DNA from: Apostichopus japonicus
Lineage: Eukaryota; Echinodermata; Holothuroidea; Aspidochirotida; Stichopodidae
DNA length: 64,000 bases
Direction of reading: 5' to 3'
NCBI RefSeq assembly: GCF_037975245.1
Contig: NC_092580.1
Location: forward strand, 33,257,001 to 33,321,000
The notes below the pieces were generated by a model. It did not search any database, had not been told where the DNA came from, and saw nothing but the letters and a program-made list of their open reading frames with translations. Shown piece by piece: positions 5,746 to 55,900 of the stretch; positions within the stretch are counted from its first letter, which is position 1, and every line of letters starts with the position of its first letter. A program made the translations under genes and the position numbers.

Positions 5746-8700
5746 ATGGAGGTAAGTTCTGTGATGTATTTAACGTAACAAATTTTAATAAATCACAGTT
5801 TTTAAGTTGTGATGTTGTTACATCAAGCGCTCCAATACATACAGTACTTTCACGTTAAGACTAGTGTAACAGTAAACCTAGGCCTTGGCTGTATCCTGGC
5901 TTGAGTTGTATAATCTCATAAAAATTGGGTTATCATTATTTCTTTGTTAAAATGTGAGACAGCACAATTGTTCTGATGATGTTGATCACTCCCTCTCCTT
6001 TAGTCTAAAAAAATCACTGTTTTATAAGTTGTAATGTTACTGTTATCAGCCATCAAAAAGAAATTGCCTGTACCAGGACCAAATATTATGCAGTCTACTT
6101 TAAGTTTAATTTAAAAGAATGAGTCTGGAATTCACTTGGATTGACCTTAAATGTGTTCAAATACTCTCCTTCTCTTTTAGCAAATATAGCATGAAAAGAA
6201 AGAATAACATGGGAATATTTCTTTCATTCTTTTTATTGGACACAAGTAAATATCAGTCTAGCAGATGTACAGTAACTTAAGTAAGAAAGCTAACACAAGA
6301 GAAGCTACTTTGATAGTGATGATTTGGACATTGATTTGGCTTCACATTTGTGAAAACCCATTGGGACATTTGCTAGCACATCACATCAAGTTTGGCTTAG
6401 TTCAGTTATACGTTTATGGTAAAATCATAAAAGTTCCAAAAGTGCATCATAATACAATAGGTCCCTTGACTAAATTGCAACTGGCCCATGTAGCCCACAT
6501 CACACAGCTTGTCTCTCCAAAATTGTGGGGAAGATATGTGGCAATCAATCATGTTTTTTATGTCGAAAGCTATTATCAAATGCTTCCAACATGTTATGTA
6601 TAGTGATGCGAACAACTTGTCTATTTTTTCAGTAAAACATATTTTTAATAAATTTTAAACAAAGATCAAGAGAATTATCATTTTCGATAGCCTATGTACA
6701 TCACTTAATGTTTGCCATTGTATGCTTTATCTGAACATCATACTAATATTCTGGCATGCCTTATTTTGATGATCTTGCTTTATAGACACAACTGAATCTA
6801 CCTTATTGATACAGACTGCTAGGGTACTTTGTTATTAATATTTAATATTATTCCTTCTTAATTCCTTATTGAAGAAAGTGCATATAGCAAAATGCACATG
6901 AACCATAGCTAAATAGTATTGGGGTAACAAAGTTAAGTTTAGGATGACATGCGAGCTTGTTAATGTTGTACAGAGTTGGAATTTAGAAACCACCAGTGGG
7001 ACCTAAACTGTTATCTCCCTGTTATAATATAATTGTAAGAATTTACGGCACCATTGATTGATTAATATGAGAATTTCTGTCAATGTGCAAACTACTGTAT
7101 GTGTGTTGAGCAGAATTTTATAGATCACTAACTGCAAATTAATGTACTATATTTGGGGCATTCAAAGCAACATTGATCAGATTTCATGAATGAAAAGTGA
7201 TAATACAGTTTTTGTATACATGACCATTTTCATTATTTTACTGTTGAGCAAAATTCATAACTCTTAAAGGGAAAGAAAAAAGCCTTTACTATTCAACCCA
7301 GAATGTATTTTCTGCTACTTGTATAAGGCATTACACTGGTGCTATCCATGATCTATTTCAGAGTTCCATAGATGAATTACTTGCCACCTTGGCAGGAATG
7401 GGATTTGAGCTTGAGCAGTGTCAGGCTGCAGTGCATGCTGGGAAAGTAACGGTTCAGTCCGCCGTTGACTGGTAAGCATTCTACATAGAAAAATGTTTAC
7501 ACCAAACATAATCGTTTCAAAGGCTATTTTTTATTATTATTCATAAATAGGTGTAACCTAAATGCAGATAACAAACAGGTCACTTGCAGACATTTTTCAA
7601 CTTTTAACAATTTGTAAAGGATGAAAAGTGTTGCATGTCATCCTTATAAATATGATCTGTCCTTCTTGGTTCTTGGTTGATTCATTGCAATTTATAAAAC
7701 AATGCATCAACATTATCTTTTAGGCATGGCTTTTGGTGCTAGCAACTTCTTCAGTTTAGCCTCAAAGCCTAAGGAGCATTCCAGACGAATATTTTAATGC
7801 TGATTGAGTAAAACCCAGTAAACTTTTAGAAATATGACTAGTTCACAAATTTAGCTGTTGCATTGTACACTGATACTGTATGTCAACACTAAAATTCTGT
7901 GTAAAGTCATCCTCTGAAGGCCAATCGGTATTGACCACAAAATATGCTAGAAAGTGAAATATTGGTCACTCATGTTCAACATCAACAGGCATTATACTGC
8001 CACCACAGAGCATTTGTTCCTCTCTTACTCTTAGACGTTTGATTGTCCAATTGAACCCCCTGCCCCCTCCCCCTGAGTCAGAACCTCCAGCAGAGTATTT
8101 CTGAAACTTCTAGCAGTTTATAATATCCTACTTTTGGGCGCAACACTGATGACCTTTAGCTTGCAACACACCTTTTAAAATGACACCATCTTTTGTACCA
8201 CATTTTCCCTGATGACATCACAGACCAACCATTAAAGTTCCAATACATTGATTAGCTTTCGAGAACTATCTGTTGTGGTTTTAGTCCAAGTTTAGTTTAG
8301 ATAGGGTGGAGCTGTAGCAGATGTATGTAAAAAAGAAGAAAGTGCAGATATTATTGTTTTAACATTTATAGCTATACTATGTACCTTACAGTGTAAAACC
8401 TATATCTAATTCTTTGTCTTGTTTAACAAGTGTCCCAACAGGAGCAGACAGCTTGATCATTTTGCTAAGATTCGTAGTCTCTGCGTATGGACCATTGAAC
8501 CCCCAACCGACCGTTGTACTAGCTACAGTATTTCCTTCCCTTGTGTGGAAGGTAATTGCTGAGGTTATTTCATTTTGTACACCGTATTTCTTGATATTTA
8601 TCCTCAGGATTCTTCAAGGAGGTGCCTCCGTTCAACAAAGCACTACAATCCCATCCAGAGCAACGCCATCACTTAGCCTACGATCGGTCTCTAGTGGCGA

Positions 8701-11700
8701 GGTTTGTTTCTACTCTACTCTTCTCTTGTTTCAGAGGGCCGAGTTAAATGATACTGACCATCCTCACTATTGGACCATTGGTCAAACCTTGTCCATATTC
8801 CTTTGCATCCAGGTAACAAGCTGGTAGCAAAAGTTACCCTGTTAATGCAGATGGGTGTGTGGGTCAGCTAAATTAGAAATCTCTTCACCAGATATTCATG
8901 AAAAGAAATGATTTGGATAAATTGTAGTAGGATTGTCACAAGAAGTGCTTTTTTTTGAGAACCTCTGCTGACTTTGAAAAGGCAGCATCATACAAGAGGT
9001 GGCTTGCTATGCATCCGACGATTGGGATTATCATTATAGTTAATAATATATTAATATTATTATTATCATAATTATTATTAATATTATTATTCATTTTCTT
9101 AATATTATTATGATTAAAAAGAACAACAATAAATATAACAATAAAATAAAATGTTTAGGCAAAAGAATAGTTTATTGTGTATTGCTGAGAAACAGGAAGT
9201 ATCACAAACTTTGTAGAGAATATTTGTTAAAGTCTTAAGCCTGAATCAATGTGTTGAGAAGTTTGAGTGTCACAATTGAAGGCAACCAGCTTTTGATTTA
9301 CTAAATTATTAAGAGGAAATTGGCCTTAATTATGAGGTGTTTTACATCACATTCGTCATCCTCTCGTAGGGAACTACCTCATCTAATGACATCGCATATC
9401 CATCATTCATGATGCCGCCGATCGGCACAGAAAACACCATTCCTGCATCAATAGATGAAACCCCATCGACAGCAGCTAGCGGGGTGGTCAGTCGTTTCCT
9501 CCTCAGCGACGACAAGAGGGAGGATAAAAATCGGTGGGAGAAGAAGAAACGTGAGGAAGACACGTCTTGGTTCAAAGAGAAGAGAAAAGAGGAAAAAGAG
9601 GTAGGAGGATATCATGACTTGATACATTACCATAGCAACCATTGGTTGTTAGGTAACATTCTCAGAGATGGAATCTGTCCTGAGGTGAATGTGTTGTCAA
9701 CAGTAGATGTGTTTACGACTGCTTGTTTGCATGAAGTGACTCAATGAATTGAATAACAAAGACTAACCAACCATCATCTCTGTGCTAAGTGGTAGACTTC
9801 TTAAATTTGAACAACTCCCCCCTCCAAAAAAAAATCCAGCCTGTGGAATTCTCTTCTTAGTGATTTCAAAATGTGCTCTTCAATTGGTCTTAATGTCAAC
9901 TTAAAACCTATCTTTTTAAGCAAGTTTTTGATGTCTAATCTGTTGTGCTTTCTTTTTGCATCTTTAAAATATTTTATTCATTTAGCTTCTATTCATTCTT
10001 CTTTTATTGTGCAGTGCAACAGCAAATTTTTTTTTTTTATAGTTGGGGCAATTTATAAATAAATTATATTATTATCATTAGATAGAACTAAGATAAGCTG
10101 AGCAAAATATTATTCCTAGTTTTTTGGTTTACGCAAGTTACTGAAGACTTCGGCAAAGTGTAAATATGACAGATTTAGGTATGAATTTCTATGGATTTCC
10201 TGTATTTATTGCAATGTAGTAATGGTATGGAAGAAGTCTATACTACTGAAGTTCTTAACAAAAGCTTTAACCGGCAACAGTTTTCAGTATCAACACTGTT
10301 TATGTGCACCTTGAAAATATGAAAAGGAAAACAGAGAAAATGCCATTTGGTGGCACCTCCTGGTGGCTCTGTGAATTCACAAATTGGCCTCAGACAAGAC
10401 AATTAAGCCTGATACCTCCCAAAGGCAACAAGACTTTCCTGAGATAAAAAAAAGGGAGTTGTTCATTACAGATATCTAAGGATTGTAAATGTTGCTATGG
10501 TGGATTACCATGGCAACTTTCATTTTCTTTTTTACAGACGAAAAAAAGGCATAAGTAGGTGGATAACCTACGGCAACCATTTACTCTGATTATCATATTT
10601 TCAAAGGTGTAAATTTGTAGTTTGAAGCTTTGGGAATTGGAGGCTTTTTGAAATCATATCTATGTGCAGAACTTAGGTTACCCTGGTGACTGGTTTTGCT
10701 TTTCTTTATAGGCTAAAGCCAACATACTGAGAGAAATTCAAGCAGATCGAGAAGCTAGAAAAACTAAACTTACTGCGCAATTCACAGCACCGCCATCGTC
10801 TACTCCAAAAACATCTCATGTGGGGCATACAACTGACAATGGATGTACTCTTCAGGTATGCACAATCATATGAAACTGTTGCTATGAAATGTGGTTGGGT
10901 GGGTGAGGGGGAGGGGAAGGGGGGATGGAGAGGGCGAGGGGGACGAAAAGGGAGAAGGAGAGAAAAGGAGATCAGCAGAAGTAGGAGGAGAAAAGCTGAT
11001 TTACTAAGGTTAACGTTCTCACTGAGTAACAGCCGTAGTTTATCTTGCTATGTTTGGTGGTTGAAGCAAAGATTTTTGTCTTCATGGGAAAATTATAACC
11101 ACAATATGAGGTTAAAAGTAGTAACAAGTTTGAATTATTTTTTAATTTGTGCATTATATATGGATCAGTGGTATCCATTGCTTACAGTAACTGATTTTAA
11201 TTGTGGAAACTGGACATGGGGAGGGTATGTACCAAAATCTAGGGATTACACCCACTCTTGCTCTCCCCTCCCCCATTCCCTCCTTACCCCCCCCCCCAAA
11301 AAAAAATTGTTATTTGTTTATACTTTCTGAAACAGAATTCTAGTTTGAGTAAATTATTTCTGTGTTGTCTTACTTGTCTCTGTAACTCAGCCACATCCAC
11401 ATTTGGGCGTTTAATAAAAAAATCAGAACCTTTGATTTACTAGTTTATAGAATTGTCAAGGAATGTTAAGTCACATGAAAAAAAATGTCATAAGTTGAGA
11501 AATAAAATCACAAGTTTCTACTAATTATGGCTTTTAGTTAATTCTTGATCAAATAATTAAGAGTCAAAATACATCATCACACTTGGGCAACATATACATT
11601 TCAATTAAAGGAGTTTTGTATCAAATTATTTACCCCTATGTCATGTTTAGCTTGTAGTCAAGTTGACATGAATGTTAATCATGTAAGGTTTTGTAACATT

Positions 11701-14700
11701 AGTGTCTATAGCCAAATAATTCATTTTTCCGGGGGGGGGGGGGAGGGGGTGGAGAAGGTAAAATTGGTGTAATAAAAGAACAGATTTGTGAAGCATTGTC
11801 AGGTCTGTTTTTCGAGAAAAAAAATTAAAAAATTGTAAGAAGTGCAAGATCAAACTGCCTGTTTATTTCACTGATGCAAATATCCCCCTCCCCAACTAAC
11901 CCCCCCCCCCAACAAGTGAAATCAGGACTTGATTTTGATGAAGTTATTTGATCATGCTAAGCCAATATGAACTAATGACCCTTAGCACTGTTGAATTATT
12001 TTCCAAGGCATATAGACAATTTCAGTAAGAAATCAAGATCAGCTGTTGATTGATGAAGATGGAAGGGTTTTACATGCAAGAACACTAATAATCTATTTAA
12101 ATAATCTATGATAATAAATAATCCTGCCTGGATTTCAGTACTAAAAATAGTTGTAAATAAAATTTACCTCAATGCTTTAATGCAGCTATTGAATTTGGTT
12201 GTAAATTTTTAATAAGACTACCAAGCATTAAATGAATAAAAAATATATATATTTTCTTTTTGACAAGAGAAGAAGTAGTGAAGGGGGGAAAGAGAAGCGA
12301 TGTATTTCTGTTTAGCTGCTTCACTTGTTTAAATCTGAGACTTTGATATGAGAAATCTTACCCTGGTAGATAACTTTTCATAGAATGTATTGTTGAGATC
12401 GTGAGCGTGACGCCAGCATTTTTACAGAATCCTCAATTATTCAGAGACGAAAAGGACAATCAATTAAAAGAATGAGACTGTGTGTAAAACAATAGAAATA
12501 TTTAGCAGTAATAATTAAACATTTATTGACATGTAATCAAAGGAAATCTTCGAAAACCCCTTTTTGTTAAATATTGTAATGTCTGTTACCTAGGTAACTC
12601 TCTTTAATATCCTTGCAACAGTGTGAAATGGACAACAGATGAGGAAATTGTGTGAAAGCCATGAAACATTGCGGGTAATGTTACAAATAAAGGAAGGGCT
12701 CTTAGAGTGTTGTTACTGATACACTTACAGACATAACAAACAAAATGTTGAAATTGTTCTTATAAATAAACAAACTGCAGTATACCAGGAAGCTTTGTGG
12801 GCATGTTTTGGGATTCTCATCCACAGTGATAGTTGTTGCCAGGGTGACAGACTCCCGGAGAAGTTCTTGTTACAACTGCATTAAACTGCATTGTCAGCAG
12901 ATCCACAGAACTCTCACTAAATTTACTTTGCCGGATGGAGAAGCCATACGAACTATATTGTGAACTTACAAAACTATATCGAAAATTTATTTACAAAGCA
13001 CGGTGTTAATACTTGTAATTCTGATTAAACTGTGGAATATCTTTAGGGTAACACCAGTAGATTGAACTAGCCTATTAAGCTGTAACAGCCTGTGTAAACC
13101 GCACTATAAGCAAGATTGTAGTTTGGTAGTTGGTAAGAGAAGTGAGGAGTATTAAATAGTTGCTACTGGTCATTTGTGGTTACTTGCCATAGGCAGGCAA
13201 GTAGTAACCTATGCAGTCAAGTTGGTGTGTATGTAATGTCCTAGCTTGGAAACATGTTATCTCAAGATAGGTAACCTCTGTAATAGTTTTACACAATTTT
13301 GTGTAGGTCAGACTTCATTTAAGGTCACCAGGGTCAAAACTTGAAATCCTTGTAAACACGATATCTGGATAGGAAACTTTATTGCTCTCATGTCATGCAT
13401 GTGGCTTCCCTACAATGAGTACAAGAAGCTTGTTGTTTTGGGTGGAGGTCAAAGGTCATTTGGGGTCATGAAAGGTCACACTCTGTAAAATTTACAAACA
13501 CATACCTTGCAAACACAATATCCCCAAGATACTGTAGGTTACATCATATAGCTCATATTTGCCATGTGACTTTCTTAAAGTGAGTACAAGGACCTGATTA
13601 TATTGAGTGGAGATAAACATTCACTTGGGATCAGCAGAAATCCAAATGTCCAAATATCAAATTGTTAACTATTACAAGAGCAAATTAGGCTCTTTGTTGT
13701 TGCAATGAGCATGCAATATAAATTACCAACAACAAGCAATGTCCGTCTGTCTTTCTTTCATAATTGTGGTATTATGTCACATGATTCCCTGTCATCAAAC
13801 CATATAAACACTGACTCTGGTTAGATCTATACTGCTCTCCATCTGCAGTATGAAATTCAGCCAGGGTTAGCTTGCAAACTACTCTTGTGCTGCATATGAA
13901 ATGTATTTTAAAGGCAACTAACTGCTGGGAGGGGTTTCCCTCTGGTTATCATCAGTAATGATTCTTTGATATTCCTCTCCTAAAGATTCGGACGCCATCT
14001 GGAAAAGTTCACAGGGAGAAATTTACGGCCCAGTGTACCCTTTACAGAGTTGTTGAGAGATTGAGAGAAGCAGGAGAAGACTTAAATTCTGTTGATTTTG
14101 TCCAGGTTAGATATCTTCTGCTTTTCTGTGACTTCTTCACATCTATTCACCAACCTATGTATCTCTCCTCCAGTGTACATATTGGTGTTCTTTTCACCAG
14201 CCTACACATCTCTCCTACAGTGTATATGTTGGTGTTCTATTCACCAAACCTACACATCTCTCCTACAGTGTACATATTGGTGTTCTTTTCACCAACCTAC
14301 ACATCTCTCCTACAGTGTTTAAATTGGTCATGAGTAGTGCACTACATTTGTCTGGACAATTAAATTTGCTTTTGGGACAACCAAAATGTAAGTCCTGAAA
14401 AAGATCTTAAGAATTTGTCCCATGTATATGTATTTATATATTATGTATTTTTTAAATTTTAATGTGTGAGTGTATTAATATGTATATTGTTTCAAGTTTG
14501 GCATCCAATTATTCATGCCTTTGCTCAGTAATTATTATTATAGAAAATGTTCTTCTTTGTGAAGGCAAGTGTGATCTTCGTTGTCATGGATATGTACTTT
14601 TTATATAAAACACTTAAATTTATGTGCTTGGGATATTATAGTGAATGTGCTTGATAAAATGGTTGAAGTTATGTATATATCTGGTAAATAGAGCTTGTCA

Positions 14701-17700
14701 AATTACAGTGTTGTATCTGGTGCATGAAACTAGTCTACCCATGAAGAATATTGGTTGCTATGGATACTGTGCTTATGTTCTGTTACATCATTCATGTTGT
14801 TAATGTCATTGCGTTACCAGGAGGTCATTCTTGAACTTGAGACTGGTATGTAGGCTGTTCTAGCTGACTGTTAATTTGTTTCGCTTTGAACATGTCATTT
14901 TCCTGTCCTTAAGATGAGTTTAATGCTGTTTTTTGGTAAAAAAGTAACTCTGTTAGTCATCAAATATTCATGGATATGAGCCACTATGTGGATGACAACT
15001 TCAAAATTTAATTTGATATAGTAACTTGTTTATGATCAAATGACTAAATAAGGTGTTAATACTCATTTTGAATAGCCAGGTGTGGAGCAGAGAAAGAAGG
15101 GATGAGTCCTGTGTCTGCTATGTGCCTGTTATCAAGTGTTTATCATTGAATATATCATATAGAGCTATCAGACCTGTAAATTGAGGTGGCAACATCTTAC
15201 AAATTTGCCCTTATATGTTTAGTTTCATAGAGTAAGTTTTTTTTTTTTTTTTCGTAAAGATTTTATCAAATTTAGAGAAAGATTCATTAAAGTTTTCCTG
15301 GAAGAGTCTGAAAGATTGCTATTCAGATATTGGTAGTGAGCCTTTTTGTTGATATCTTTTTTGCTCTTTTCTTGTCATTAGCCATTTCCTCCAAAGACAT
15401 TTACGGAGTCGAAAGACTTTGATAAATCGCTATCGGAACTCCGCCTAACACCTTCAGCTTCTCTCGTAGTCAGACCAGCAAGGGATGAACCACCTGTGAA
15501 AGGTGAGATGTTAAGCTGGTCACCAGGTGGTTTGGTGGATTGATTGAGTGTGATTCTGCGATCAACAGTGAAAGGGATGATGGGGGGAATGGGGGGGGGG
15601 GAAGGTGTGAGACTGAGGAAGATATTGAAGAGCCTTCTTTGCTTGTATGGAAAACAAAAGTATAAATTTAGTACCGAGCAACAGACATAGAGAGATACAG
15701 AGGCAAGGGGAATATGAAAGGGAGGTGGGGTGGGGGAGGGGGTGGTGGAATGGAGTGGAGGAGAAGGGAGGTGAGAGAACTAAATCTTTGCACAGATTAG
15801 CCCATATAGTTGTTCAGTGAGTCGTAGTCCTCAGTTAAATCGGCTAAATAAATATACAACCAAAAGGTTGTAGGTGACTCGGAGTGACCAATCGGAATAG
15901 TTAGATTGCTTAGGGTCTGGATAAATTTTAGTTCCTGCCTAAGAATGATATGGTATAAATGAAGACGTTTTCTCGATTTGAACTCAAGGATTTTCAAATG
16001 TGTAAAAGAGTGACAGCTGCAGTAGTGGATAGGACACTTGGAAATTTAGGCTTCACATAGCATGCACCTTGACCCTCCCCCCTCTTCCCCACCCATGTAG
16101 GAGCCATGACCATGAAGCAAGGTAGAGTTTAACTTGTGTTTAATCCTTCATATGTATTGTCTTTTCTCTCAATCAGTCCAACGACAGGATGAGCCATTAG
16201 ATTTTGCTGGTTTGGATAGCGTCCAGTCCACCTCTCAAGATGAGGCAGGTTGTTCAGATTTATCTGAAAGTGAGAATGTAGAAAATTTGGAAGAGAGTGT
16301 GAGGGTGAACGCTCCCACCCATGAGGAGGAGGAGGAGGAGGAGGAGGAGGAGGAAGAGGAGGAACAGCATGAGTTAGATTCTGTTGGGGGCGGGGTAGGG
16401 TTCAATCTGCCACCAGATCTTCATCTGCCAAGGGAGCTGGTGGACCAAGACAATCGGTTAGCGCATCCGAGAGGCGGCCCGCCACACAGACACGATCAGT
16501 TTAATCAAGAGATCGAGAGACAAGCAGGGTTTGTCAATGAACTTGGGCTTGGAGGTTTGATGAGAAGTAAGAACTGAAGGGAAAATAATGTCAAATTACA
16601 TAGTAATGATGACCTGAACACATTTATTTTTGCAATGTTGACAATTTTTTTGGTTACTTGCTATATGCAGGTTTTACTGTAGTGAAATGTGTCCAGCTGC
16701 TTAATGAGTGTAATGTACAGGGGTGCAACCACAATGTTTGTACTGGAGGGGAGGAGGGGGGGCAAAATATTGTTGGTAGCCCCTCCCGTTTGAGAATTTT
16801 TTTGTAAAATGCTGGGTGCTTTTGATGCAAATATACTGCAATATTTTGAGTTGAAGAAAGTTTAGCTGTAAAGGTTGCCCCCTGGTGATGTTACAGTTAG
16901 GGCAGTATTTCATTTGCCAAACTTTGAACATCCTAATGAAACGTCATGGTAATGATTGACGTAGTGTTACATTTATTCTTTTGGAGAAATTCTTGAATTA
17001 ATTTTGCCCTCGTGGCTGTTATCTTGAAGGAATGCGTGGACCTCATGACTGGGGAGAGGGTCAGAAGTTACAAGGAGATGCAGCAGGGCAAGGTCAGGAG
17101 GATGGGGAACAGATGGATGTGTCACCTGACTCAGCCGTTGTAGCAGGTACTGGTCTTCAATCAAAGTTGAAAGTATTTCTTAGAATTATTTCAACAAAAC
17201 AGTAGATTTTCTACCTTATTTTAAGCATCCCTATTAAAATGATAAAATATTAAAATTTAGGCATTTTTATTTTCATTAGTTTGCTTTTGAAAAGTATTAT
17301 TACTATATATACTATTACAACAAAAAGTTGAAGATTGTTTCCGTTGCCCCTGACTTATGCTAGAAATTGCCAAAAAATGGTTGCACACATTCAAAGTTTC
17401 AACATGCATTTTATCTGTAACTTAAGCCTTATGTAAACACAAAAGTCAATGCATCTTTACATGCTTGGGCTCAATTAACATTTAGATTTTAATTATAACA
17501 AGTACAACGATTGGAAACCAAGCTCTCATAATGGGCCAAAATTTTAGCAAATATGTACATTGTCCAGAACGTGTGATTATTCAACACACAATAGTATAAA
17601 AAAAAGACTGTTTTAGACCATTTGATTGATACATAATGAGTCCTTAAATGCTAAAGACCAACCACTTAAAAGGTTTCTTGCAAACTTAAATCCATATTAA

Positions 17701-20700
17701 CATGCTAAAATGTGGAGCCAATACTAATAATCTTGAAATTTACTTGTTTCTTGGCAATTTTATAGTTCTCTCTGGACTCTTTTATCAGCTGCTGCATTAC
17801 AACGATTGACTACAAGTTGCCATGGTAATGCTGAGGTCACCGAGGGCACTGCCACAGACAAACCAATCTCCTCCCTCTCGGACATGTGTTTCAAAAGTGT
17901 TTTGAAGTCCATCGACACCAAACCAGATCAACAAGCTACACCAGTTCATCTGGAGGCTATACCCAGTCATGTGGCCGTCAAACTCTTGAACGAGCTCAAG
18001 AGATCTGGTAGCCTGAGACCGAAGATTCTTCAGCTATTTCTGCCGTGGTAAGAGACAAGACTACAGTCCAGGGATTAAATGTGTGCTTATGTGGGATTTA
18101 ATTGTGAAACAAATACCATTGAACAGCTATTTAGAGGGAAAACTGTATCATGGAATTATGGATTAAATGACACCATAAGAAAGTTAATGATCTTAAGTGT
18201 GAACAAAATCACAGATTTCAGATACTGGTAATGCTTGCCCAGATGCTAGTGTATGTTGCATGTCTCTGAGGTACTCATTTGAAAGAAGAACAGTAATTAA
18301 ATGAACTGAATGTGCTAGCATTGTATAATCTCAGTCTGAGGGCTGGAATTAATGAAACATACTACCATTGTACAATTTCTGTTTGTGCGCTGGAATTAAT
18401 GAAACATGCTAGCATTATACCATCACTAAATAGAGAACAGGAATTGAAGCAACATGCTAGCATTGTACAATCTCTCTCTGAGGGCTGGAAATAGAGCAAT
18501 ATGCTAGCCACATGCTAGCATTGTACTATCATTGATAGAGAATAGGAATAAATGCAACTTGCTAGCATTGTACAATATCTGTCGGAGGGCTGGAAATGGA
18601 GCAATATGCTAGCCACATGCTAGCATTGTACTATCACTGATAGAGAATAGGAATTAATGGAACATGCTAGCATTGTACAATATCTGTCGGAGGGCTGGAA
18701 ATAGAGCAACATGCTAGCCACATGCTAGCATTGTTCTATCACTGATAGAGAATAGGAATTAATGCAACTTGCTAGCATTGTACAATATCTGTCGGAGGGC
18801 TGGAAATAGAGCAATATGCTAGCCACATGCTAGCATTGTACTATCACTGATAGAGAATAGGAATTAATGCAACATGCTAGCATTGTACAATCTCTCTCTG
18901 AGGGCTGGAAATAGAGCAATATGCTAGCCACATGCTAGCATTGTACTATCACTGATAGAGAATAGGAATTAATGCCACATGCTAGCATTGTACTATCACT
19001 GATAGAGAATAGGAATTAATGCCACATGCTAGCATTGTACAATATTTGTCGGAGGGCTGGAATTAAAGCAATATGCTAGCCACATGCTAGCATTGTACTA
19101 TCACTGATAGAAAATAGGAATTAATGGAACATGCTAGCATTGTACTATCACTGATAGAGAATAGCATTTTACAATATCTTTCTGGGGGCTGGAATATGCT
19201 AGCATTGTTCCATGTGTGAGGGCTGGAATTAAAGCAATATGCTAGCATTGCACCATCACTGATATAGAATATTAATTAAAGTAAAATGCTAGCATTGTAC
19301 CATGACAGACTGTATGTAATGTTTATTTGGCTGTGTTTAATAAAGGAGTGATGGACTCCAAGACTCAGTGACATGCCTAGTTTAGCGATATATATCAGAT
19401 TACAGGTAATAGTGTTGATTACTTGGTGAAGTGATCTGTCAAATTACCCAAGTTGGTAATATGGAATATGCACCAGATGAACTACTTAGGATAACTGGTT
19501 AAAGCTGGAATAAGTTACTGTGATCTTCTATGGTAACAAGATATAGAGTGATACGCTCTTGCTGATGTAGAATACAGACCGACAGGAGTGTTAAATACAT
19601 GTAAATACTGCACTGAACATTGCCATGTACACTTATACCATCCACACTGCACAAAGAAGTATTAAGCTTCCATTAACATGTTGCATATCAACAAAGGCAC
19701 CAACATTAGAAAACCAAAAGGTTGGATTAGTGGCTGCCCACATCTGAGGGTGGTATGAGTTAAATGTATTACCTTCCCATCGACTGAAAGTGTGTTACCT
19801 TTAACCTTTCACATTGATAACATCCAACAAAGTACATGAGATCTGATTTGTTCCATAAAATGGTTGCCATGAAGACTCCATTTTGTTTTCCTGTTGTCAG
19901 CCATCTGCGGGATCTCTCCCTTGACTGTTACAAGTATGCAACCAATGATCTTCTACAGTGTGTAAGCAGACATGCATTCCTCACACGACTTAGTCTGACA
20001 GCCTGCCAATTCATCACTGACCAAGGACTTCTGTCATTAACCAGTGAGTAACTCATGCTGCTGCTCCCTATTAGGCCTTTCTTAATACTGCCCTCTCTTG
20101 TTTTACTTATTCAATGCTTTATCTTGTGTGTGATTTCTGGGAGCTGCTACATGTGAGTACCCAGGGTGATTTTCAAGCAGTAGGGGCATAGCATAAACTA
20201 TTAGAGTAGTTAAATACTCATCTGCTGGAATTGGCCTAAATGATATGTACCATAGAAAAACATATAAAGAAATTCCTTTCTTAGTGTTAGTAATTTATGA
20301 TTGGTTCTTTCCTGTGATAGGTTCATTAATATTCATCATTTTGTGTGTTTGTGTGCGTGTGTGGATGTGCTGGTGTGTCTGTGTGTATGTCTGTCACAGC
20401 AAAACCAATCACAATCTTTACCAGCATATCCAATGGTAGTCTTGAACCTAGTAAAAGCCTGTAGTGTGGACCTGCCTTGGGTAGATATGAATCTCAACTC
20501 ATATCATCAGGGCGCATAATCATTTGTTTCATCAACAGTTGTAAATATTTTCCTTGATTCGACGCAATTTGCTAAGAGAAAGAAATATTTAAGCCTTCTA
20601 GCTCACCGTAACAATTTTCCCCAGAATTTGTTTTATATTCTTAGGGTTCATGTTTCCCCAGAATGATATTCTTAGGGTTCATGCTACCATCAAATCACCT

Positions 20701-23700
20701 GCATTGCTATATAGATTACATATTGATCACAGCCATTGGTATTTAGTTGCAGGTATTCAGGTATGAATATGCATTGATCCCATAATGATCACCAAACACA
20801 GTCTTTGCTTTTCAGTTGCAGGTTTTCATTTATGAATATGTATTGATGACATAATGATCACCAAACACAGCCATTGGATTTCAATTGCAGGTTTTCAGGT
20901 ATGAATATGTATAGATCCCATAATGAACGATCACCAATCACAGCCATGGATTTGATTGATTGATTTATAATGCCTATTCTGCTTACTGATTAATTCCCAA
21001 TTAACTCCCAACTTTCTCTGAGTTGATGAAGATTTTAATTGCTTCAACAATCTCTCTAGTCTTATTTACCTCGTCATCATACTGCTCATGATGTGACAGT
21101 TTTCCTTGCTTGTATTGTAAAGCATGGCAATACTTGTCATCCGTAGTCTGGGCATGGTCTATCATATCACCAATTCTATTTGTTACAATGGTTTTCTTTC
21201 AGGTTTGAAGAGGCTCCAACTTTTGAATTTGTGCAATAATTGGCAAGTCACAGACAAAGTCTTTCATCTTGTAACTGGTGAGTTAACTCTTTCTTTAACT
21301 CTTAAACCAACTTATAGAGGTTTCTCTCATATCCTATTTACTCTCACAGAGGAAGTTTGTGGTTTCTATTTCACCAAAACATAATTTATCATTACTTTGC
21401 ATGGTTCTGCTTTCTTCTTATGCAGAGCTTGGTAATCTTACAACTCTCATCTTGGAAGGGACATCAGTAACAGATGCAGGCTTGAAAACATTGACTTCTG
21501 GTAGTAACAAGATGCTCACCACTCTGAATTTGAACAGAACATCTGTGACTGACATTGGGGTAGCTTCCCTTACTAGTAAGTCTTTTAGCTCTCCTCCAGA
21601 CTTGCTTCAAGTCATTTTACCTCTGTATGATTTAACAATCTCTTTGTTTATCTCCTACCTCTCCTCTTCCCCTGTTGGTTTCTTGCTTTCTTCTCTCCAT
21701 TAATTTTGTCCCTTCTGTTACTGTTACTTGTCATTTAGCCTCTGAAGAAGATCCTGCTAGGATCGAAATGTCAGGCCAACTTACTTGTACACATTCTCTT
21801 ACACAGGCTCTCTAGTGGATGAGCAGTTTGCTAACAGTTTTATTTTATAAGTCATTCATTTCTTTTGTGTCAGTTTTGTGGGTGATGTCCTACATTTATC
21901 ACTTTTTGGTTCTCCTAGTTGTGGGGGATCACCTCATAAGTGAGCTAATCTTGTTGCTAGGAATTGATATTACAGTCCATGTGTCTATCAAAAAAAGCCT
22001 TTCATGTTTATCTGGTATATCTACATATATTGTCTCTATTCTTTCGCCTGATTAGATCTTCCAAATTTATCGGTGCTCGGACTAGAAAAAACTCTGGTGA
22101 GTATTTTGAATGGTTCAACATTGAATTGTCATATTTAACCTTACTTCCAGTGTAATTTTCATGGGATCTGTAGTTGTTTTCCGTGACTGATTGTTGCTAG
22201 GGAAACATAACTAACGTATTTCATGGTTGTTCCGTCGTCATGGTTTCCCCAATTGTGCTAGAATATCAAATAGTGGCTACTCACTGTCCGCTTCCAAATT
22301 GTGTACAACCATACTCTCGGAATGAACTAATTTCTTGAGACAATCAATCATGTAACTAACACTTGCTTCCAGTAAATATCTGTGAATAATTTGGATTGAT
22401 GGATCCTCCCGAGTTTTGAAAGCAGGTTTATTGTTCTAAAATTGATCATTAATCACTCCTCTTTGTAGGCAGCATTATTGTACCTTCACTCTCAAGAGAT
22501 TCATTTTTTGCCTTTAAACTTTCTGTTGACTGGCGCATATACACACGTTTACTTGGAGAGGTTAACATAAAATGGTAACATGATAGGCTTAGGGATGTTG
22601 AATTTAAGGTAATATAAACTGAATTGTATGGGTCTTTCCATCAGTATTCCTGAGGTTTTTCAAATAAGTGAGACATGTATAATTCTGTGCAATTAAGTAT
22701 GCTTTATTAATAAAGCTACCAGTCATAACAATGTATGTATTTGGTGAGACATCTCATTATAGAGTTGGTATAAAATATTACAAAAATTGCCAAAATTTCT
22801 GAAACCAATCCTTCAGTTGATTCTGTGTGTATTACCTACCCCCAACAATGCCACTAATTTGTATCCATTATTTAATATCCATTCTTTCATAATTCTTTGA
22901 TTGCTCACAGATTAAGCATCTAGAGGGCGTCAGTGTGTTATGTAAACTTCGTTCTCTGAACATCTCAAGGAACAGCCTAGTTGGCACGTCTGAATTTAAG
23001 TGCCTGCAGAAGCTGACAGGACTCTGTGTGCTCAATGTTGGTCAGATGGAAGATATGATGGGAGATGCAGTATTATTCTTTCTAGCAGGTGAAGATACAA
23101 TGCATATGCATATATGTAAATGCATATATGTAAATGATGCTTTCTGCACTCAGTTGGGACAATATTCTATATAATGTACTGTCATGTTCTGCCACTTGTT
23201 AGCACTTGTACTGACAGTATGAGAAGTATGAATAGTTTGGTTTGATTAGATGAAGGTTAGGAACTGCTCATACTGTCAGCACAAGTGGTTTGAAGCAAGA
23301 CATGAGAGGACAGTATAGAGTGGTATTAGCATTAAATCCTGGTCTGAACTGGCTGCATTATTAACAAGCCTTTACTGCAGATGATATCAAGTACTGGGAG
23401 GGTACAATTAGTTTTCTAGTGGAGTATGCTGCTGTAGTCTACACTACCTTCACAGACTTTGTTTACAATACTGTGTTATAATATTCTTTATCCCATTTCT
23501 TCACAGGCCTTGGCCTTAAACAGCTTACTTTACCAGACAGGCACACTACCACTGATGAGGGTTTGAAACACATTAGCAGTAAGTATGCAAGAATACTACA
23601 CGGTTGTTTGGGCTTGAAGCATGTAAATTATTAGTATGTATTCATTCTTACTGATGACAAAAACTAACACACATTAACAATGAGTATGTAGGAATACTAC

Positions 23701-26700
23701 TCAGTAGTATGGGCTTAAAGTATGTGACTTGCTAGTATGTGTTCATTCTTGCTGTGAGTATTCACTAAAACCTAAGTCAATTCAAAGTTAGCACAGGTAG
23801 TATGTAGGAATACTACTCAGTAGTATAGGCTTAAAGTATGTAACCTGTTAGTATGTGTTCATTCTTTCTGTGAGTATTCACTAAAACCTAAGTCAATTCA
23901 AACTTAGCACAGGTAGGTCTGTAGTGGTTCACTATTTTATATTTGTTGACTTCTTTCTCTAAATGCTTTCAAAATTGTTATCATTAAAGAAACGATAACA
24001 CCAGCATAATTGAGCCAAGTCACATATCAAGAGAACTACCGGAAAAAAGGTGAACTGGACTTTCTTTCTCTGATAGAGAATTAATTATTCACAATCAGAG
24101 CAAAGGTTCATGGAACCTTCTACTCCTTCCATACTTCCATTCCTTTCCATTCCTCCCATTACTTTGGCACTTGAGAACTATCTCTTTAAGAAATTTGGCT
24201 AATGTCTTTGGTTCTTTGCTTTCAGGTGAATGAAGTGGGTTGAAGAGGGGGAGGGGGGGGTAGTGAATGGCAGGATTAAACAGTCAAAACATGCATGTAT
24301 GTTATCCCAATAATTCATGGGGTACAAGATAAATATATTACATGACCAAAGAAACGTCATTGCTGATACTGTGAGCCTTGTGGCATTTTGTATTACTATG
24401 ATCTTTGGAATTTGTAACACATAAAAGTGAAGTCTACCTGTTACATTTATCAGGAGGACCCGAAAAAAACAATGGAGTAAATTTGTTGTCATTGATTTTC
24501 ATTGTTCTGCAGATTTACCTTTGGTTACCTTAGACCTGACAGATTACATTCATATCACAGACAGAGGAATCGAACATATCGGCAAGATTCAAAGGTATGT
24601 CTCTATATGTATTAGTTACCTTAGACCTGACAGATTACATTCATATCACAGACAGAGGAATCGAACATATCGGCAAGATTAAAAGGTATGTCTCTATATG
24701 TATTAGTTACCTTAGACCTGACAGATTACATTCATATCACAGACAGAGGAATCGAACATATCGGCAAGATTCAAAGGTATGTCTCTATATGTATTAGTTA
24801 CCTTAGACCTGACAGATTACATTCATATCACAGACAAAGGAATCGAACATATCGGCAAGATTCAAAGGTATGTCTCTATATGTATTAGTTACCTTAGACC
24901 CGACAGATTACATTCATATCACAGACAGAGGAATCGAACATATCGGCAAGATTCAAAGGTATGTCTCTATATGTATTAAGACTCCTTGTGAATAAGATTT
25001 TCAGAATGACTAAATGAGACACAAAGACCCGAAATTAATTTCAAAATAATATGTAAGATGGTGTTGGAACAAAACTTGGGACTAGAATGCATTCATCATA
25101 AACCATCTGTAAATTATTAACACAATTCTGCTTTAATTTTACTCTGCTTTACTCTGCTAGTAAAGATGTCTGTTATCCACCTGTTAAATATATGTATATA
25201 TTTGACAATAATATATAATAATAATAATAATGTATTGTTTTTACAACAACTATGTTTCTTGTGCAATTTCTCAGCCCTATGAACCCATCCCCCTCATCGC
25301 TGTATAAGACCATTTGTAGGGGATTTTGTAATATAAATAAATAAATTTTAAGTAAATAATATTTAAAGATTTGCATTTTTACTCTCTCTCTCTCTCCCTC
25401 TGCAGTCTGAAGAAATTATCTCTGTCAAATGTGAAAGTCACAGATGCATCGATGCATCACATAGCAGGTAAGTGAGGCCTCACAATCATAGTTGACAACA
25501 TGCATAAATACCTGTGAAACCAGTCATTTTAGTTAGGGAGGCAGTAAATTCCACCGTGTTCTCCCAAAGTTGGATGTTTAATTTACTCCCATGGAGTAGA
25601 TTCCATCCCACATCTCTTCTGCCTCCTCCCCCCCCCTAAAAAAAAAAAGAGAAAAAAAGCATAACAGAGTTTTTTAAGAAGGTTATGACTGCCTGTATTC
25701 ACAACATACAATCCAAGTTTGGATCGTGACGTTGACATTAGAAATTCATTACCTTATGAGGAGTTTTGTTCAAAGTGATGGTGGCTGAAAGGTTGGTGGG
25801 CTGTCATCCAAGGAGCATTGCATAATTTACCTCAATGAATTGGGTTTGTAAAGAAAATAAAAGTAAATACAAAAAGCTTGCTAAAGTTGTCAAATACAAG
25901 CTCATCTGTTGTACAATGTTGCATGACTTGGACTGTCTTGAGACTTGTTAAAGTCTTCTGACTGGCCTTGCATATGTAGATATGAAGGAATCTGGATGGT
26001 GGATGGGGGGAGGGGAGGGGGGGAGGGGAGGGGGAGGTTCCTGATGTTTATGTTTGACCCTCCTTTAATTAGATTCCTACTCAGTGTGTAAGTGTAGCTA
26101 TTCAGCCTTCCATATGTGCACATTGTGGTTGCTTAACATTCTCAAATAACTGTCATTGAATCAATTGGTTATATACTGTTGGGTCCCCTCCCCCTCCCCT
26201 CCTCCACCCCTTCCCTAAAAAACACTGTCAACAACAAGCACAGATTGGAAAGTTAAATGAGAATTGAAGAGCGAGGAAATTATTTGCTAACAAGGACTCA
26301 AACCAGTTACTGCTGGAATATAAGTACACCAAATAAAACACAAAAAGAAGCAAGGATCAAATGAAGTACCCCTGTACCTCTCACAGGACTAATCCCTCCC
26401 CCCCCCTTTCTACTGATATTGTCTTTATTCTATGTCTTGATGCATCCGCCCATCCTTAAAGTCTTTCAATATGTCTGTTTATTTCCATTTCTCGAAAAGG
26501 TTTATCGGAGCTTATAGATTTGAATCTTGACCGGACTCTGGTCACTAACACTGGTGCTATGCAACTCCATTCTCTGAAGAGACTTCAAGAGCTTAGTTTA
26601 GCAGAAACAAAGTAGGTTTACCATTTTGATACTTTATGTGAAGTGTCTTAATCCTCCAATTATGTACAGAACGCTCAGAAATAAGTTACCTTCCTCTGCA

Positions 26701-27570
26701 AACCATTCCCAAGTGTAGACTTGGAGGCATTATTATTTTGTCATGAGAAAAAAAAAAAAAAAATTCAATTTCTTCAAAATTTCTCTTTAACAGAATTACC
26801 AGCAAGTTGTTAAAGAATGGCTGTTTGAATAAATGTGTACATCTGACACATCTTAACCTCAGCAGGACAAACGTATCCAGCATAGGTATGTTTCTTCAAA
26901 CTTTCAGAACAGTCACGGTTTGTGATGCTTCTTACATGTGTCAATGTAATCAACAATTTTTAATAAACTTTTAGTTCTTCACTCTGGGTGATTATGTATT
27001 GTTTTTTAAATGAAGTTTTCAATACCTTCTCCGACAAACCTCCACAATTGTGACCTGCCAACCGCTGATTGTCACACCCGTTCCATTTTTCATTACATTT
27101 ACTTTGCAAACAAGTGAGAATAAGAAAGATAAGGACAAAGTCAATCGCTCTGTCAAGTGAGTTTTTCGCACAGAAATACAACTTTTATGCCAAAATATTT
27201 TGTAAAGTAAAATGAAGCAGATATGTTGTAGTCAACAAAACCTGTAAAAGCAGTGATCTTTTGAGCCAGATCATGTTATTGCTGCTTTAGCAAGTTACCA
27301 AATAATATTTTTAACGGGGTAAGAAAACTTTGATTTTGTTCTCATTGGACTCATGTTCTCTGCCTTTTTCTCTTCTTTTTTTCCATGTCAGGAATAGAAT
27401 GTCTGATTTTACCCAAGCTGACTCATCTCAACTTGGATCAAACCTACGTCAAGGCAAGCGAGAAGGAGGAGTTGATGAGGAGATGTCCATCAATTAAAGT
27501 ACTCCGTCTCACCGGATTGAAGGAACCTCCGAGGTTTCTCGATGACGAGGATGATGATGTCAATGACTAG
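5746..27570 (+). CDS. UBA-UBX-BC-box-LRR protein (925 aa, 21 coding exons)
   Basis: Coding exons: 5746-5751, 7362-7471, 8608-8701, 9370-9600, 10712-10855, 13986-14105, 15382-15502, 16177-16566, 17030-17146, 17789-18047, 19901-20043, 21203-21277, 21426-21575, 22056-22096, 22911-23088, 23507-23578, 24513-24594, 25406-25467, 26500-26611, 26794-26885, 27392-27570. All introns are GT-AG, all phases join, and the total is 2,778 nt. Domains in order: UBA (residues 4-39, MGF loop at 15-17); charged helix/coiled coil (about 112-168); UBX (about 190-268), whose p97-contact loop reads FPPK (237-240) rather than FPR; acidic linker with 14 consecutive Glu (325-338); BC-box-like SLSDMCFKSV (473-482) followed by IPSHV (502-506); AMN1/ZYG11-type leucine-rich repeats (about 532-905); acidic tail (917-925). 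The UBA-helix-UBX half resembles UBXN1/SAKS1. The BC-box plus LRR half resembles ZYG11/ZER1- or PRAME-like cullin-2 receptors. The start ATG has A at -3 and G at +4. The protein is probably cytosolic or nuclear, with no signal peptide or membrane segment. Gene structure is very secure; a role in p97- and cullin-linked ubiquitin handling is inferred. Confidence 0.9.
9030..9140. repeat. AT-rich (ATT/TTA)n low-complexity tract
   Basis: Imperfect runs of attatt and aatatt in the intron between the third and fourth coding exons of the UBA-UBX-LRR gene. It is a degenerate trinucleotide microsatellite with no other feature. Confidence 0.7.
13344..13640. repeat. Two diverged copies of an interspersed repeat
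   Basis: The segments starting 'cttgtaaacacgatatc' (near 13350) and 'cttgcaaacacaatatc' (near 13506) are about 155 bp apart. Both continue through a 'gtgagtacaag'-like core to 'gaggtcaaaggtcat'- or 'gagataaacattcac'-like ends. This indicates an old tandem or nested repeat inside the large intron 10856-13985. The rest of that intron shows AT-rich DNA and poly-G/poly-C runs only. Confidence 0.5.
14150..14330. repeat. Minisatellite, about 47 bp, 4 copies
   Basis: Units containing 'atctctcctacagtg' and 'ttggtgttcttttcacca' recur at 14161, 14208, 14256 and 14303. The array begins 45 bp after the donor of the exon ending at 14105. Each unit contains a pyrimidine run plus cag that resembles a splice acceptor, but no exon follows. 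Confidence 0.8.
18311..19302. repeat. Satellite-like tandem array, about 105-bp unit
   Basis: About 1 kb of repeats lies in the intron 18048-19900. A unit holds two 'tgctagcattgtac' elements, an 'agggctggaa' block and a 'tatcactgatagagaatagg' block. Successive copies near 18561 and 18666 are 105 bp apart. The palindrome tgctagca recurs throughout, and several higher-order deletions and duplications are visible. Non-coding. Confidence 0.9.
20738..20948. repeat. Tandem repeat, about 70 bp, 3 copies
   Basis: Three units share 'gttgcaggt(t/a)ttca', 'tatgaatatg' and 'ataatgatcaccaa(a/t)cacag' with a period near 70 bp, in the intron 20044-21202. The remainder of that intron has a GT-rich microsatellite near 20343-20395 and no exon. 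Confidence 0.7.
21709..21805 (+). repeat. Retroelement remnant with hammerhead-like core (copy 1)
   Basis: This segment shares about 90 bp with 29613-29705. Its core is CTGAAGA at 21742-21748, then A, then a 5-bp stem GATCC/GGATC (21750-21754 with 21760-21764), then GAAA (21765-21768) and TGTC (21769-21772). The 4 nt before the core (GCCT) pair with the 4 nt after it (AGGC), extendable to 7 positions with one mismatch. The order of stem I, CUGANGA, stem II, GAAA and GUC matches a minimal type-I-like hammerhead with almost no stem III, as described for the flanks of Penelope-like retroelements. One extra A after CUGAAGA departs from consensus, so activity is doubtful. It lies in an intron of the UBA-UBX-LRR gene. 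Confidence 0.55.
23579..23920. repeat. Tandem repeat starting at a splice donor, about 117 bp
   Basis: Two near-identical units begin 'agtatgtaggaatactac' at about 23682 and 23799. A third, more diverged unit begins 'agtatgcaagaatactac' directly at the donor of the LRR exon 23507-23578. Each contains 'ttagtatgtgttcattc', and the two near-identical units end in 'cttagcacaggt' or 'gttagcacaggt'. Intronic, non-coding. Confidence 0.75.
24525..24979 (+). repeat. Five tandem 91-bp copies of an LRR exon plus its donor
   Basis: The unit comprises the last 70 nt of the exon 24513-24594 plus 21 nt of following intron (gtatgtctctatatgtattag). It is repeated exactly five times (455 bp) with only a handful of substitutions. 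The first copy is the functional exon end. The other four lie in the intron, each with an intact gtatgt donor and a weak 'attag' before it. Because 91 is not a multiple of three, reading through or using a later donor shifts the frame and meets a stop within the next unit. Only use of the first donor (24595) preserves the protein. Confidence 0.95.
26005..26037 (+). other. Perfect short-loop G-quadruplex candidate
   Basis: Five runs of at least four guanines separated by single adenines (26005-26010, 26012-26015, 26017-26023, 26025-26028, 26030-26034) lie on the sense strand of an intron of the UBA-UBX-LRR gene. Single-nucleotide loops favour a stable parallel quadruplex. Other G-rich sense-strand tracts lie at 10904-10953 and 15722-15770. 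Confidence 0.6.
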
Positions 27571-28267: not shown

Positions 28268-28273
28268 AATAAA
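28268..28273 (+). promoter_or_regulatory. Polyadenylation signal AATAAA of the UBA-UBX-LRR gene
   Basis: This is the first AATAAA after the stop codon at 27568-27570, giving a 3' untranslated region of about 0.7 kb. A T-rich stretch (gtgctttattt) follows, as expected near a cleavage site. No coding ORF lies between stop and signal. Confidence 0.65.
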
Positions 28274-52900: not shown

Positions 52901-55900
52901 TGCCAAACTTGCGGTATAGGCTCCAGTTCGTATGCAACAGTGTGTAAGGATAATAGTTCTTGTCACAGAGGTAGAAAAGAAACCATGGATATTCCGCGAA
53001 TTTGCGGAAAAAGCTCATGCCTGAGAAAAGTATCGAATTGTAGCTCATGATTCTTCCACACAGAATAATTCTCTTCAAATTAAGATTTCCACAAGACTGA
53101 ACAAGAAATGCACAGATCTCAAGCTATCTCAAAGTTATTCTACGACGAACGTTGGAAATTAAAGAATTAAAGATAATTAAAGAAAGTTGTTTATAGCTCT
53201 TTTTGGATTGAAGTTTTACAGCTAGACTCACAGGAGTCTGAAGAGTGCAACTGTTTTGAACGTCATCCACAAATACGAAACATATCTGCAATGCAATACG
53301 ATAATACCATGGAAACAAACATGTATATACATGTTAAACTGAGGGCCCCTACTATGCAACATACATGAGTTATGTGTGTTCGTGGTAATCGGGGAATAAC
53401 TTATTTGGCATTGCATACCAGATAGGCAAAATGGTAAAAATTTGCTATACAAGTTCAGAGATGACAAAACTGGTACACAAAATTATTCCCTGGTAATACT
53501 AACATATAAGCAAGCCTGTATAACTGCACAAATAATTATGATTTCGTACTTCATTTTTACAAGTTGGTACAAATATTGCATCATACTGGGATGCATGTAG
53601 TGAGTGTGTGTCTGTGGGGTGGAGGAGTTGGGTGGGGGGGGGGAGCGGAGTTACAAGAGTAAGCTCACCTGCACGTATGGCAGCATTCTCTAAGATCACA
53701 CGATTGTAGATGAATCTGATGTACTTGGCTGGGTTCAGTGTCCTTGGGCCCTCTTGACCAAGGAGATGTAAGATGCGAGTGGCTAGGGAGGTGTGCTCAC
53801 AGTCCTCTATGAACTCACAGAGATGAGATAAGCCTGCCTCTTTGGCTTCTGGGTTTTCCTCAATAATTCCAACCAGACTGTTCACAATGGCCTTCTTGTA
53901 CTCGTAACCACCCTATAGAAAAAGAGGGGCAAGACACGAAAGGCAATAGCAATTAGCAGCAGGATACGACACAGCATTTTCAATGTAGCTACTCTATGGG
54001 TGTAGCTACTCAATATGAGCGTAGCTTCTCTATGAGTGCAGCTATCTATGAGTGTAACTAATCTATGAGTTTAGCTACTCTATGAGTGTAGCTACTCTAT
54101 GAGTGCAGCTACTCTATGAGTGTAGCTACTCTATGAGTGCAGCTTCTCTATGAGTGTAGCTACTATATGAGTGTAGCTACTCTATGAGTGTAGCTACTCT
54201 ATGAGTGTAGCTACTCTATGAGTGTAGCTACTCTACGAGAGTAGCTACTCTACGAGTGTAGCTTCTCTACGAGTGTAGCTAATCTATATGAGTGTAGCTA
54301 ATCTATGAGTGTAGCTACTCTGAGTGTAGCTACACTATGACAGTAGCTACTCTATGAGTATAGCTACTCCATGAGTGTAGCCACTCTATGAGTGTAGCCA
54401 CTCTATGAGTGTAGCTACTCTATGAGAGTAGCTACTCTATGAGTGTAGCCACTCTGAGTGTAGCTTCTTTATGAGTGTAGCTAGTCTATATGAGTGTAGC
54501 TAATCTATGAGTCTAGCTAATCTATGAGTCTAGCTACTCTATGAGTCTAGCTACTCTATGAGTCTAGCTACTCAGAGCCCTACTACACAAGTTGTATTGA
54601 AGGTGATATGGAATCTTCAAAGGAAGAACAAAACCAACGTAAACTTACATCATCCCTGAGCATGGAAGCCAGGAAGTTCATCATGACGGTGTACTTGCGG
54701 GGAAACTTTGAACAGAGCGAGCTGACGGCATCGACTACCACGACTTTGAACTCGTCCGAGATGTCTGACATGAATGTACCGATCTGTTTCATCAGTCGAT
54801 CAATACTGCTCTCACTTCCAGTCTTGAGGAGCGTCGTGATGGCAAGGGTTGCTATGCTGCGATTCACATCCGTGATGAGATTTTCCAGGTCAAGATTGCA
54901 AGCGGTGACGGCAGCGGGATGTGTCATGGCAACCTTAGTGGGATGGAATGAATAGTTACAAATAAGTCATTGTTTTCACTGTAGGTATGAGTTTTCCTGG
55001 GATAACCACTGAATTATAAATCCAATTAATATATTAACTTGATAAATGAATGTATAATACAATATTATGAATCACTGTATGAAGGGGACTGACCACCCAG
55101 TCATAATAATAGAGACTGGAAGGTTAATTATCCTTCAAGCTTTCTCTGGCACAGGTGTACAAGCCACTTGACAAAAGGTACTCAAGCAGCAGGTATTACA
55201 AATGTGCCTGGAATCATTTTAAGTGTAGCTAATATCTAACAGTTACAAATATAAATATAGCAGCAGTCTTTAAAATTTTGAATTAAAATCAGCCTTCAGT
55301 CTTGAGTTACAACTTCAGGTGACCAGTCTGTGATTTGTAAACACTCGTTGCGGTCACGTCAGCTGAAAGGTCTCATTTGAGAAGAAATTGAGACCATAAC
55401 AACTTCTGACTTCTTGCTAGACCGACCCAAACTAACCGATATTAGAATAACATCACATCTCTTGTCACCATGTCAACCAATCACAACAGTTTTCTACTGA
55501 GCATATTCAAGACACCACCTGATTGGTCTGTATGAGTGCACAGAGGTATGTAGACCTGTCCATGGTACTAACTAAAACCGTGTCTTTTAGACCTGATCCT
55601 GCAAGATTGATTTGACATACCTTGTTAAGAGTCTTGGTGGCTGCAAACCTGAGCGTTGGCTTGGGAGAGCTCAGGAAGAGTTGTAGGACAGAGACTGCCG
55701 GGGCTAGCTCCCTGGCAGAGGTATCCTTCATGTTAACGATGGCATGAGCAGCTTCATAAATCACCATCTGGATCGCAAAGATCATTAATTGGATTAATTG
55801 TGTTTAATTACATGAAGCTTGAATACTTGAACACAAGATCAATCATGTATCTTGGTTTTAATTGGGCAATAAGCTATTAAAAATCAGTCAAGCTGCTAAA

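Follow-up and report, generated by a model that had tools for sequence, protein, structure and literature searches.

Gene model and domain architecture

Whether a single polypeptide can both recruit a Cullin-2 ubiquitin ligase and deliver the resulting substrate to the unfoldase p97 is the question raised by a gene of the sea cucumber Apostichopus japonicus, located in a window of 64,000 nt (C20:33257001-33321000; contig NC_092580.1 of assembly GCF_037975245.1) that comprises the whole stretch of DNA analysed. Searches of the genome covered 671,581,487 bases in 35 contigs. The coding region extends from position 5746 to 27570 of the forward strand, and its modelled 21 exons form one open frame of 925 amino acids in which a UBA domain, a UBX domain, a VHL box and leucine-rich repeats (LRRs) can be recognised, together with a probable SHP box.

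Exons were picked by eye from three-frame readings so as to hold the frame, and were joined by script; this is the one model scored, with no alternatives. Its coding length of 2778 nt corresponds to 925 codons and a stop, with 0 internal stops and GT-AG boundaries in 20/20 introns, and the first AATAAA past the stop codon, a polyadenylation-like signal, occurs at 28268. The original prediction had joined 21 exons in frame into 925 residues, and a rebuild returns the same start, end, exon count and length. Its further proposal that UBA, UBX, a BC box and LRRs share this frame is borne out by the agreement of Pfam, the BC consensus and the splice model, to which we add a Cul2 box next to the BC box, and the probable SHP box.

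The splice model places these modules one after another along the gene. Exons 1-4 (5746-5751, 7362-7471, 8608-8701 and 9370-9600) and exons 5-7 (10712-10855, 13986-14105 and 15382-15502) encode the UBA-UBX portion, exons 8 and 9 (16177-16566 and 17030-17146) an acidic linker, and exon 10 (17789-18047) the BC and Cul2 boxes. The LRRs occupy exons 11-14 (19901-20043, 21203-21277, 21426-21575 and 22056-22096), 15-18 (22911-23088, 23507-23578, 24513-24594 and 25406-25467) and 19-21 (26500-26611, 26794-26885 and 27392-27570).

Modules of the p97 side

The UBA domain covers residues 6-42 (exons 2-3, 7371-8617), and is identified by UBA_7 at 29.2 bits (9e-7) in a scan restricted to residues 1-70, with 23.9 bits, below the 27-bit cut-off, in the whole protein. 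The PF00627 UBA family stays below its 22.4-bit cut-off both ways, scoring 14.6 bits in the whole protein and 19.7 bits for residues 1-70. The UBX domain (residues 189-266, exons 5-7, 10835-15474) is matched by PF00789 at 6.1e-13 and 49.2 bits, against a cut-off of 21. Structure searches with the p97 half return as best PDB match the UBX domain 2kxj (2e-4; UBX domain-containing protein 4), followed by 2lbc (UBA) and FAF1 entries. For comparison, UBX exons were taken from three other loci found by a PF00789 family scan of the genome, which we take to be UBXN1-like (L005, on C8), FAF1-like (L006) and UBXN4-like (L007). The nearest is the UBXN4-like exon pair, joined by us, with 25 identities in 76 columns (z-score 14.9), and the UBXN1-like and FAF1-like exons follow with z 7.1 and 5.9. 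The UBX domain of the 925-residue protein was itself absent from this family scan because it is split over three exons, such that other split UBX genes may have been missed.

The probable SHP box, HDWGEGQKL, lies in exon 9 (residues 411-419, 17044-17070), where WGEGQKL matches the core of the consensus h(x)1-2F/W(x)0-1GxGx2L as given in text of PMC5389986. Shuffling residues 276-531 generates this core in 55/5000 cases, and a PDB peptide search with the SHP region gave 0 matches. Together, the UBX domain and the SHP box would form a bipartite p97 contact of the type known from p47, according to a portion of PMC5042407; with regard to UBXD9, a passage of PMC8495200 cites recent structural work as finding the SHP box dispensable. 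Within the acidic linker is a run of 14 glutamates (residues 325-338), encoded by a GAG repeat at 16323-16364 that is possibly length-variable.

Modules of the ligase side and their relatives

The VHL box is composed of a BC box, SLSDMCFKSV (residues 473-482, 17872-17901), and a Cul2 box, IPSHVAVKL (residues 502-510, 17959-17985), both within exon 10. The former fits the consensus (S,T,P)LXXX(C,S,A)XXX-phi and aligns with RAD7 and a ZYG11-like sequence, and the latter fits the downstream consensus phi-PXX-phi-XXX-phi, both as stated in part of PMC4878042. The strict BC pattern with a Cul2 pattern downstream arises in 73/5000 shuffles of the whole protein and in 10/5000 of residues 276-531, the corresponding numbers for the loose BC consensus being 469/5000 and 71/5000. 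Additional loose BC matches lie at residues 625, 689 and 778, all within the LRRs, and Cul2 matches at residues 53 and 80. Since such short motifs are not rare by chance, they constitute modest evidence alone, and it is the alignments to RAD7 and the ZYG11-like sequence that carry the claim.

When the box is taken together with the first LRRs, it aligns with yeast RAD7 (PDB 5zb2) at a score of 60 (z 7.3, 0/10,000 shuffles) and with an in-genome ZYG11-like exon (L002) at a score of 57 (z 6.2, 0/10,000 shuffles). Control windows drawn from residues 1-520 score 19-28 in eight of nine cases, the ninth, which overlaps the query, having been dropped. The box alone also aligns with L002 (z 6.6, 1/5000 shuffles). 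Profile comparison by hhalign gave a probability of 69 (P 4.5e-5). With a profile built from the 925-residue protein, L002 and the ZER1-like locus L001, ZYG11B is retrieved at 1.2e-11 and RAD7 at 0.044; the former value is not independent, because relatives of ZYG11B sit in the profile.

The LRR domain itself (residues 531-915, exons 11-21, 18046-27537) holds approximately 16 repeats by eye. Pfam matches it with LRR_8 (2.4e-15) and LRR_4 (1.7e-12), and the simple pattern LxxLx[LIV] occurs 15 times without overlap. Among the best 60 of 119 PDB matches, those of the LRR half are generic, with bacterial LRR proteins leading. FBXL17 is present in the same best 60 of 119 at an E-value of 1.3e-6, with a match that begins inside the BC box. 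An F-box in place of the VHL box is nevertheless disfavoured, as Pfam at E 10 gives neither an F-box nor a VHL-box family there.

RAD7 (PDB 5zb2) and L002 (5436-6485, forward strand) were also compared with each other over the box and the start of the LRRs, giving z 10.2 and 0/10,000 shuffles. These two align better with each other than either does with the 925-residue protein, which suggests one ancient box-plus-LRR module, hinting that RAD7 and ZYG11 may share an origin. On C2, the ZYG11-like exon is preceded by a 1027-residue open frame (L002, 2-3082, forward strand), which has by eye the appearance of a retroelement polymerase.

A proposed ligase-to-unfoldase receptor

VHL boxes bind Elongin B/C and CUL2, UBX domains and SHP boxes bind the N domain of p97, and UBA domains bind ubiquitin. 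Given these family functions, we favour, at a probability of roughly 55 %, the reading that the sea cucumber protein combines the roles of Cullin-2 substrate receptor and p97 adaptor, with a VHL-box/LRR receptor fused to UBA-UBX-SHP. The VHL box would bind Elongin B/C and CUL2-RBX1, the LRR domain would hold a substrate, and RBX1 would build a ubiquitin chain on the substrate so held. The UBA domain and the UBX/SHP pair, tethered by the acidic linker, would catch the ubiquitin chain and p97, and the substrate would go from ligase to unfoldase in cis, with no need of an additional adaptor like UBXN7. The latter, as described in part of PMC9633789, bridges in trans between p97 and both neddylated CUL2 and the products of CRL2-LRR1 (CRL2, Cullin-2 RING ligase). 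A connection between UBX proteins and the VHL ligase is reported in text of PMC5216831. It is possible, if rather doubtful, that the molecule amounts to a self-contained 'ubiquitylate-and-extract' receptor, that is, a Cullin-2 receptor of the RAD7/ZYG11 type with a bipartite p97 adaptor built into the same chain, so that both machines work on one substrate.

A number of results count against the favoured reading. On the p97 side, the UBX loop at residues 237-239 reads FPP where p97-binding UBX domains have FPR, although Arg197 is kept; these domains carry an R...FPR signature according to a section of PMC5389986, which also describes the UBX-like domain of OTU1 as inserting a YPP loop into the same p97 pocket. 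Elsewhere in the genome the corresponding loops are FPR in L005 and L007, and WPK in L006, so that variation of the loop is seen there as well. The FPP loop probably weakens p97 binding without excluding it. A missing micro-exon in this loop is thought unlikely, as the loop aligns gap-free to 2kxj. In the SHP box the leading hydrophobic position can only be filled by Pro, and the core arises by chance in 121/5000 shuffles of the whole protein, or 74/5000 with the full consensus and Pro counted as hydrophobic. Of the earlier interpretation, the architecture stands on frame, domains and box alignment, p97 binding is weakened by the FPP loop, and the functional coupling is something that we likewise infer.

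On the ligase side, the box alone aligns more weakly with RAD7 (z 3.1, 109/10,000 shuffles) and weakly with the ZER1-like L001 (z 2.5, 149/5000). The box plus LRRs compared with L001 depends on the limits chosen, at z 4.5 (7/5000) or z 2.2 (414/10,000), and the boxes of L001 and L002 resemble each other poorly (z 1.3, 537/5000). All of these shuffle statistics are without a control for general LRR likeness. A single-sequence PDB search places RAD7 at the top with E 0.65, with ZYG11B absent from the 10 matches. Pfam finds 0 families at E 10 in the 135-residue box region, hence the evidence for the VHL box consists of the consensus matches and the pairwise alignments, and the predicted structure of exon 10 alone is uninformative (predicted local distance difference test score, pLDDT, of 51). 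Lastly, the single-chain gene model is drawn from genomic sequence alone.

Alternative explanations

The alternative that survives best, although we deem it unlikely, is that the protein is a p97 adaptor and uses its VHL box to dock on Elongin/CUL2 only so as to place p97 at CRL2, with the LRR domain binding a partner that is not degraded. UBXN7 does this with its ubiquitin-interacting motif. It binds neddylated CUL2 and acts in this way in trans, as reported in part of PMC9633789, whereas LRR-bearing VHL-box proteins are described as substrate receptors in the relevant text of PMC4878042 and PMC13201589.

Somewhat less probable again is that the locus yields two products with little or no joint protein, namely a UBA-UBX-SHP adaptor that terminates past exon 8 or 9, and a VHL-box-LRR receptor expressed from an internal promoter. 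In agreement with this, read-through of exon 8 or exon 9 reaches a stop soon, and candidate in-frame Met residues are found just before exon 8, in exon 8 (M404) and in exon 9 (M407 and M434). There are also 3 AATAAA and 8 ATTAAA hexamers between exons 7 and 11, although these polyadenylation-like signals may be chance products of A+T-rich introns. Every exon junction is, however, in phase. As the linker has no good Pfam match (best E 5.7), the coding character of exons 8-10 was tested separately, using codon usage trained on the 18 remaining exons and set against triplets from introns, with 4000 intron windows of equal length drawn per exon. The model frame scores best of the frames in each of exons 8, 9 and 10, and the exon score is reached by 0/15, 0/364 and 0/28 open intron windows, respectively. 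Furthermore, the frame of exon 10 holds no ATG from the last upstream stop up to the exon, and the sole Met of exon 10, M477, lies within the BC box. Exon 10 by itself therefore cannot initiate a protein whose BC box is intact, and a separate LRR gene would need to take its start from exon 8 or 9, from just before exon 8, or from further upstream, where an internal promoter may exist. Frame, coding character and the fact that exon 10 offers no suitable start together support, but do not prove, that the two halves belong to one transcript.

Recruitment of another cullin, Cul3 or Cul5, by the Elongin-binding box appears improbable, for although RAD7 is the best single-sequence PDB match of the box region, the motif that follows the BC box agrees with the consensus for Cul2 boxes as worded in part of PMC4878042, the Cul2 type being the only one compared. 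Yeast RAD7-Elc1 works with Cul3.

Relationship to known systems

With regard to the ZYG11B/ZER1 receptors, the order of an N-terminal VHL box followed by LRRs is shared, with LRR_Zer-1 a weak match here (E 0.36). ZYG11B has an ARM domain after its VHL box and LRRs, as outlined in a portion of PMC13201589, whereas no ARM family is found among the 12 Pfam families matching the sea cucumber product at E 10, and the product ends after its LRRs; it differs also in having UBA, UBX and SHP modules upstream. LRR_Zer-1 and ZER1-like_2nd are matched by separate genes on C2 and C22, and hence the gene studied here is not their orthologue; orthology to ZYG11/ZER1 is rejected on these grounds and for the missing ARM match. 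We take ZER1-like_2nd to be the ARM part. In yeast RAD7, a box is followed by LRRs, as appears to be the case in the 925-residue protein; the RAD7 box binds Elongin-C, and we know of no UBA or UBX domain in it. CRL2-Lrr1 displays the reverse order, with the VHL box after the LRRs, according to text of PMC8682755.

The UBA-UBX adaptors UBXN7, FAF1 and SAKS1/UBXN1 have both of these domains, as here, the loops compared being FPR or WPK within the genome versus FPP in this protein; to our knowledge, neither they nor other UBA-UBX adaptors have an LRR or a VHL box. Orthology to UBXN1 is thought unlikely, as a UBX exon with an intact FPR loop on C8 (L005) presumably represents that gene. For p47 and UFD1-NPL4 we know of no E3-recruiting box. 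They have a bipartite p97 contact of UBX or UBX-like domain plus SHP, as set out in parts of PMC5042407 and PMC5389986.

All 6/6 genome matches of the N-terminal half fall at its own locus, in a search that overlooked the UBX exons known from the PF00789 scan and that would miss distant relatives. For the LRR half, the best match outside the locus is 32 % identical (E 5.8e-5). The gene is thus single copy, in the sense of having no close copy in the genome.

Searches of the open-access literature, by titles and abstract starts of the papers listed, revealed no description of a protein combining UBX, LRR and VHL box, although databases may well contain this architecture without a name for it. 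Trans adaptors are known through which an E3 ligase and p97 act in succession, and UBXN7 acting with CRL2-LRR1 at replisomes is one of the well-studied examples, as seen from part of PMC9633789. If the favoured reading is true, the hand-over from ligase to p97 can be hard-wired in a natural protein, which would provide a clean test of whether p97-ligase nearness is the function of UBA-UBX adaptors, as well as a ready-made design for targeted extraction. If the architecture is ancient, it could represent a RAD7-like animal receptor whose duties are spread over separate proteins in yeast and vertebrates.

Repeats and neighbouring features

Exon 17 and its splice donor are overlain by a 91-bp unit present five times (24524-24978, forward strand), with near-identical copies that each hold most of the LRR exon plus the donor; the model uses copy 1 only. 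As 91 is not divisible by 3, and as the model acceptor stands before copy 1, the extra copies look intronic, and the array looks like a minisatellite grown from the exon-intron border. Further minisatellite arrays, with periods of 47, 105 and 152 bp, are found at 18315-19164, in the intron that separates the BC-box exon from the first exon of the LRRs.

An Rfam scan returned 0 matches, and a viral-contig scan gave 160 pattern matches with no relatives. Beyond the gene, an open frame on the reverse strand at 41582-42673 matches carboxylesterase (PF00135, 6.4e-109), and another at 53502-53912, also on the reverse strand, matches Adaptin_N (PF01602, 4.9e-19) and may represent a coatomer gamma exon.

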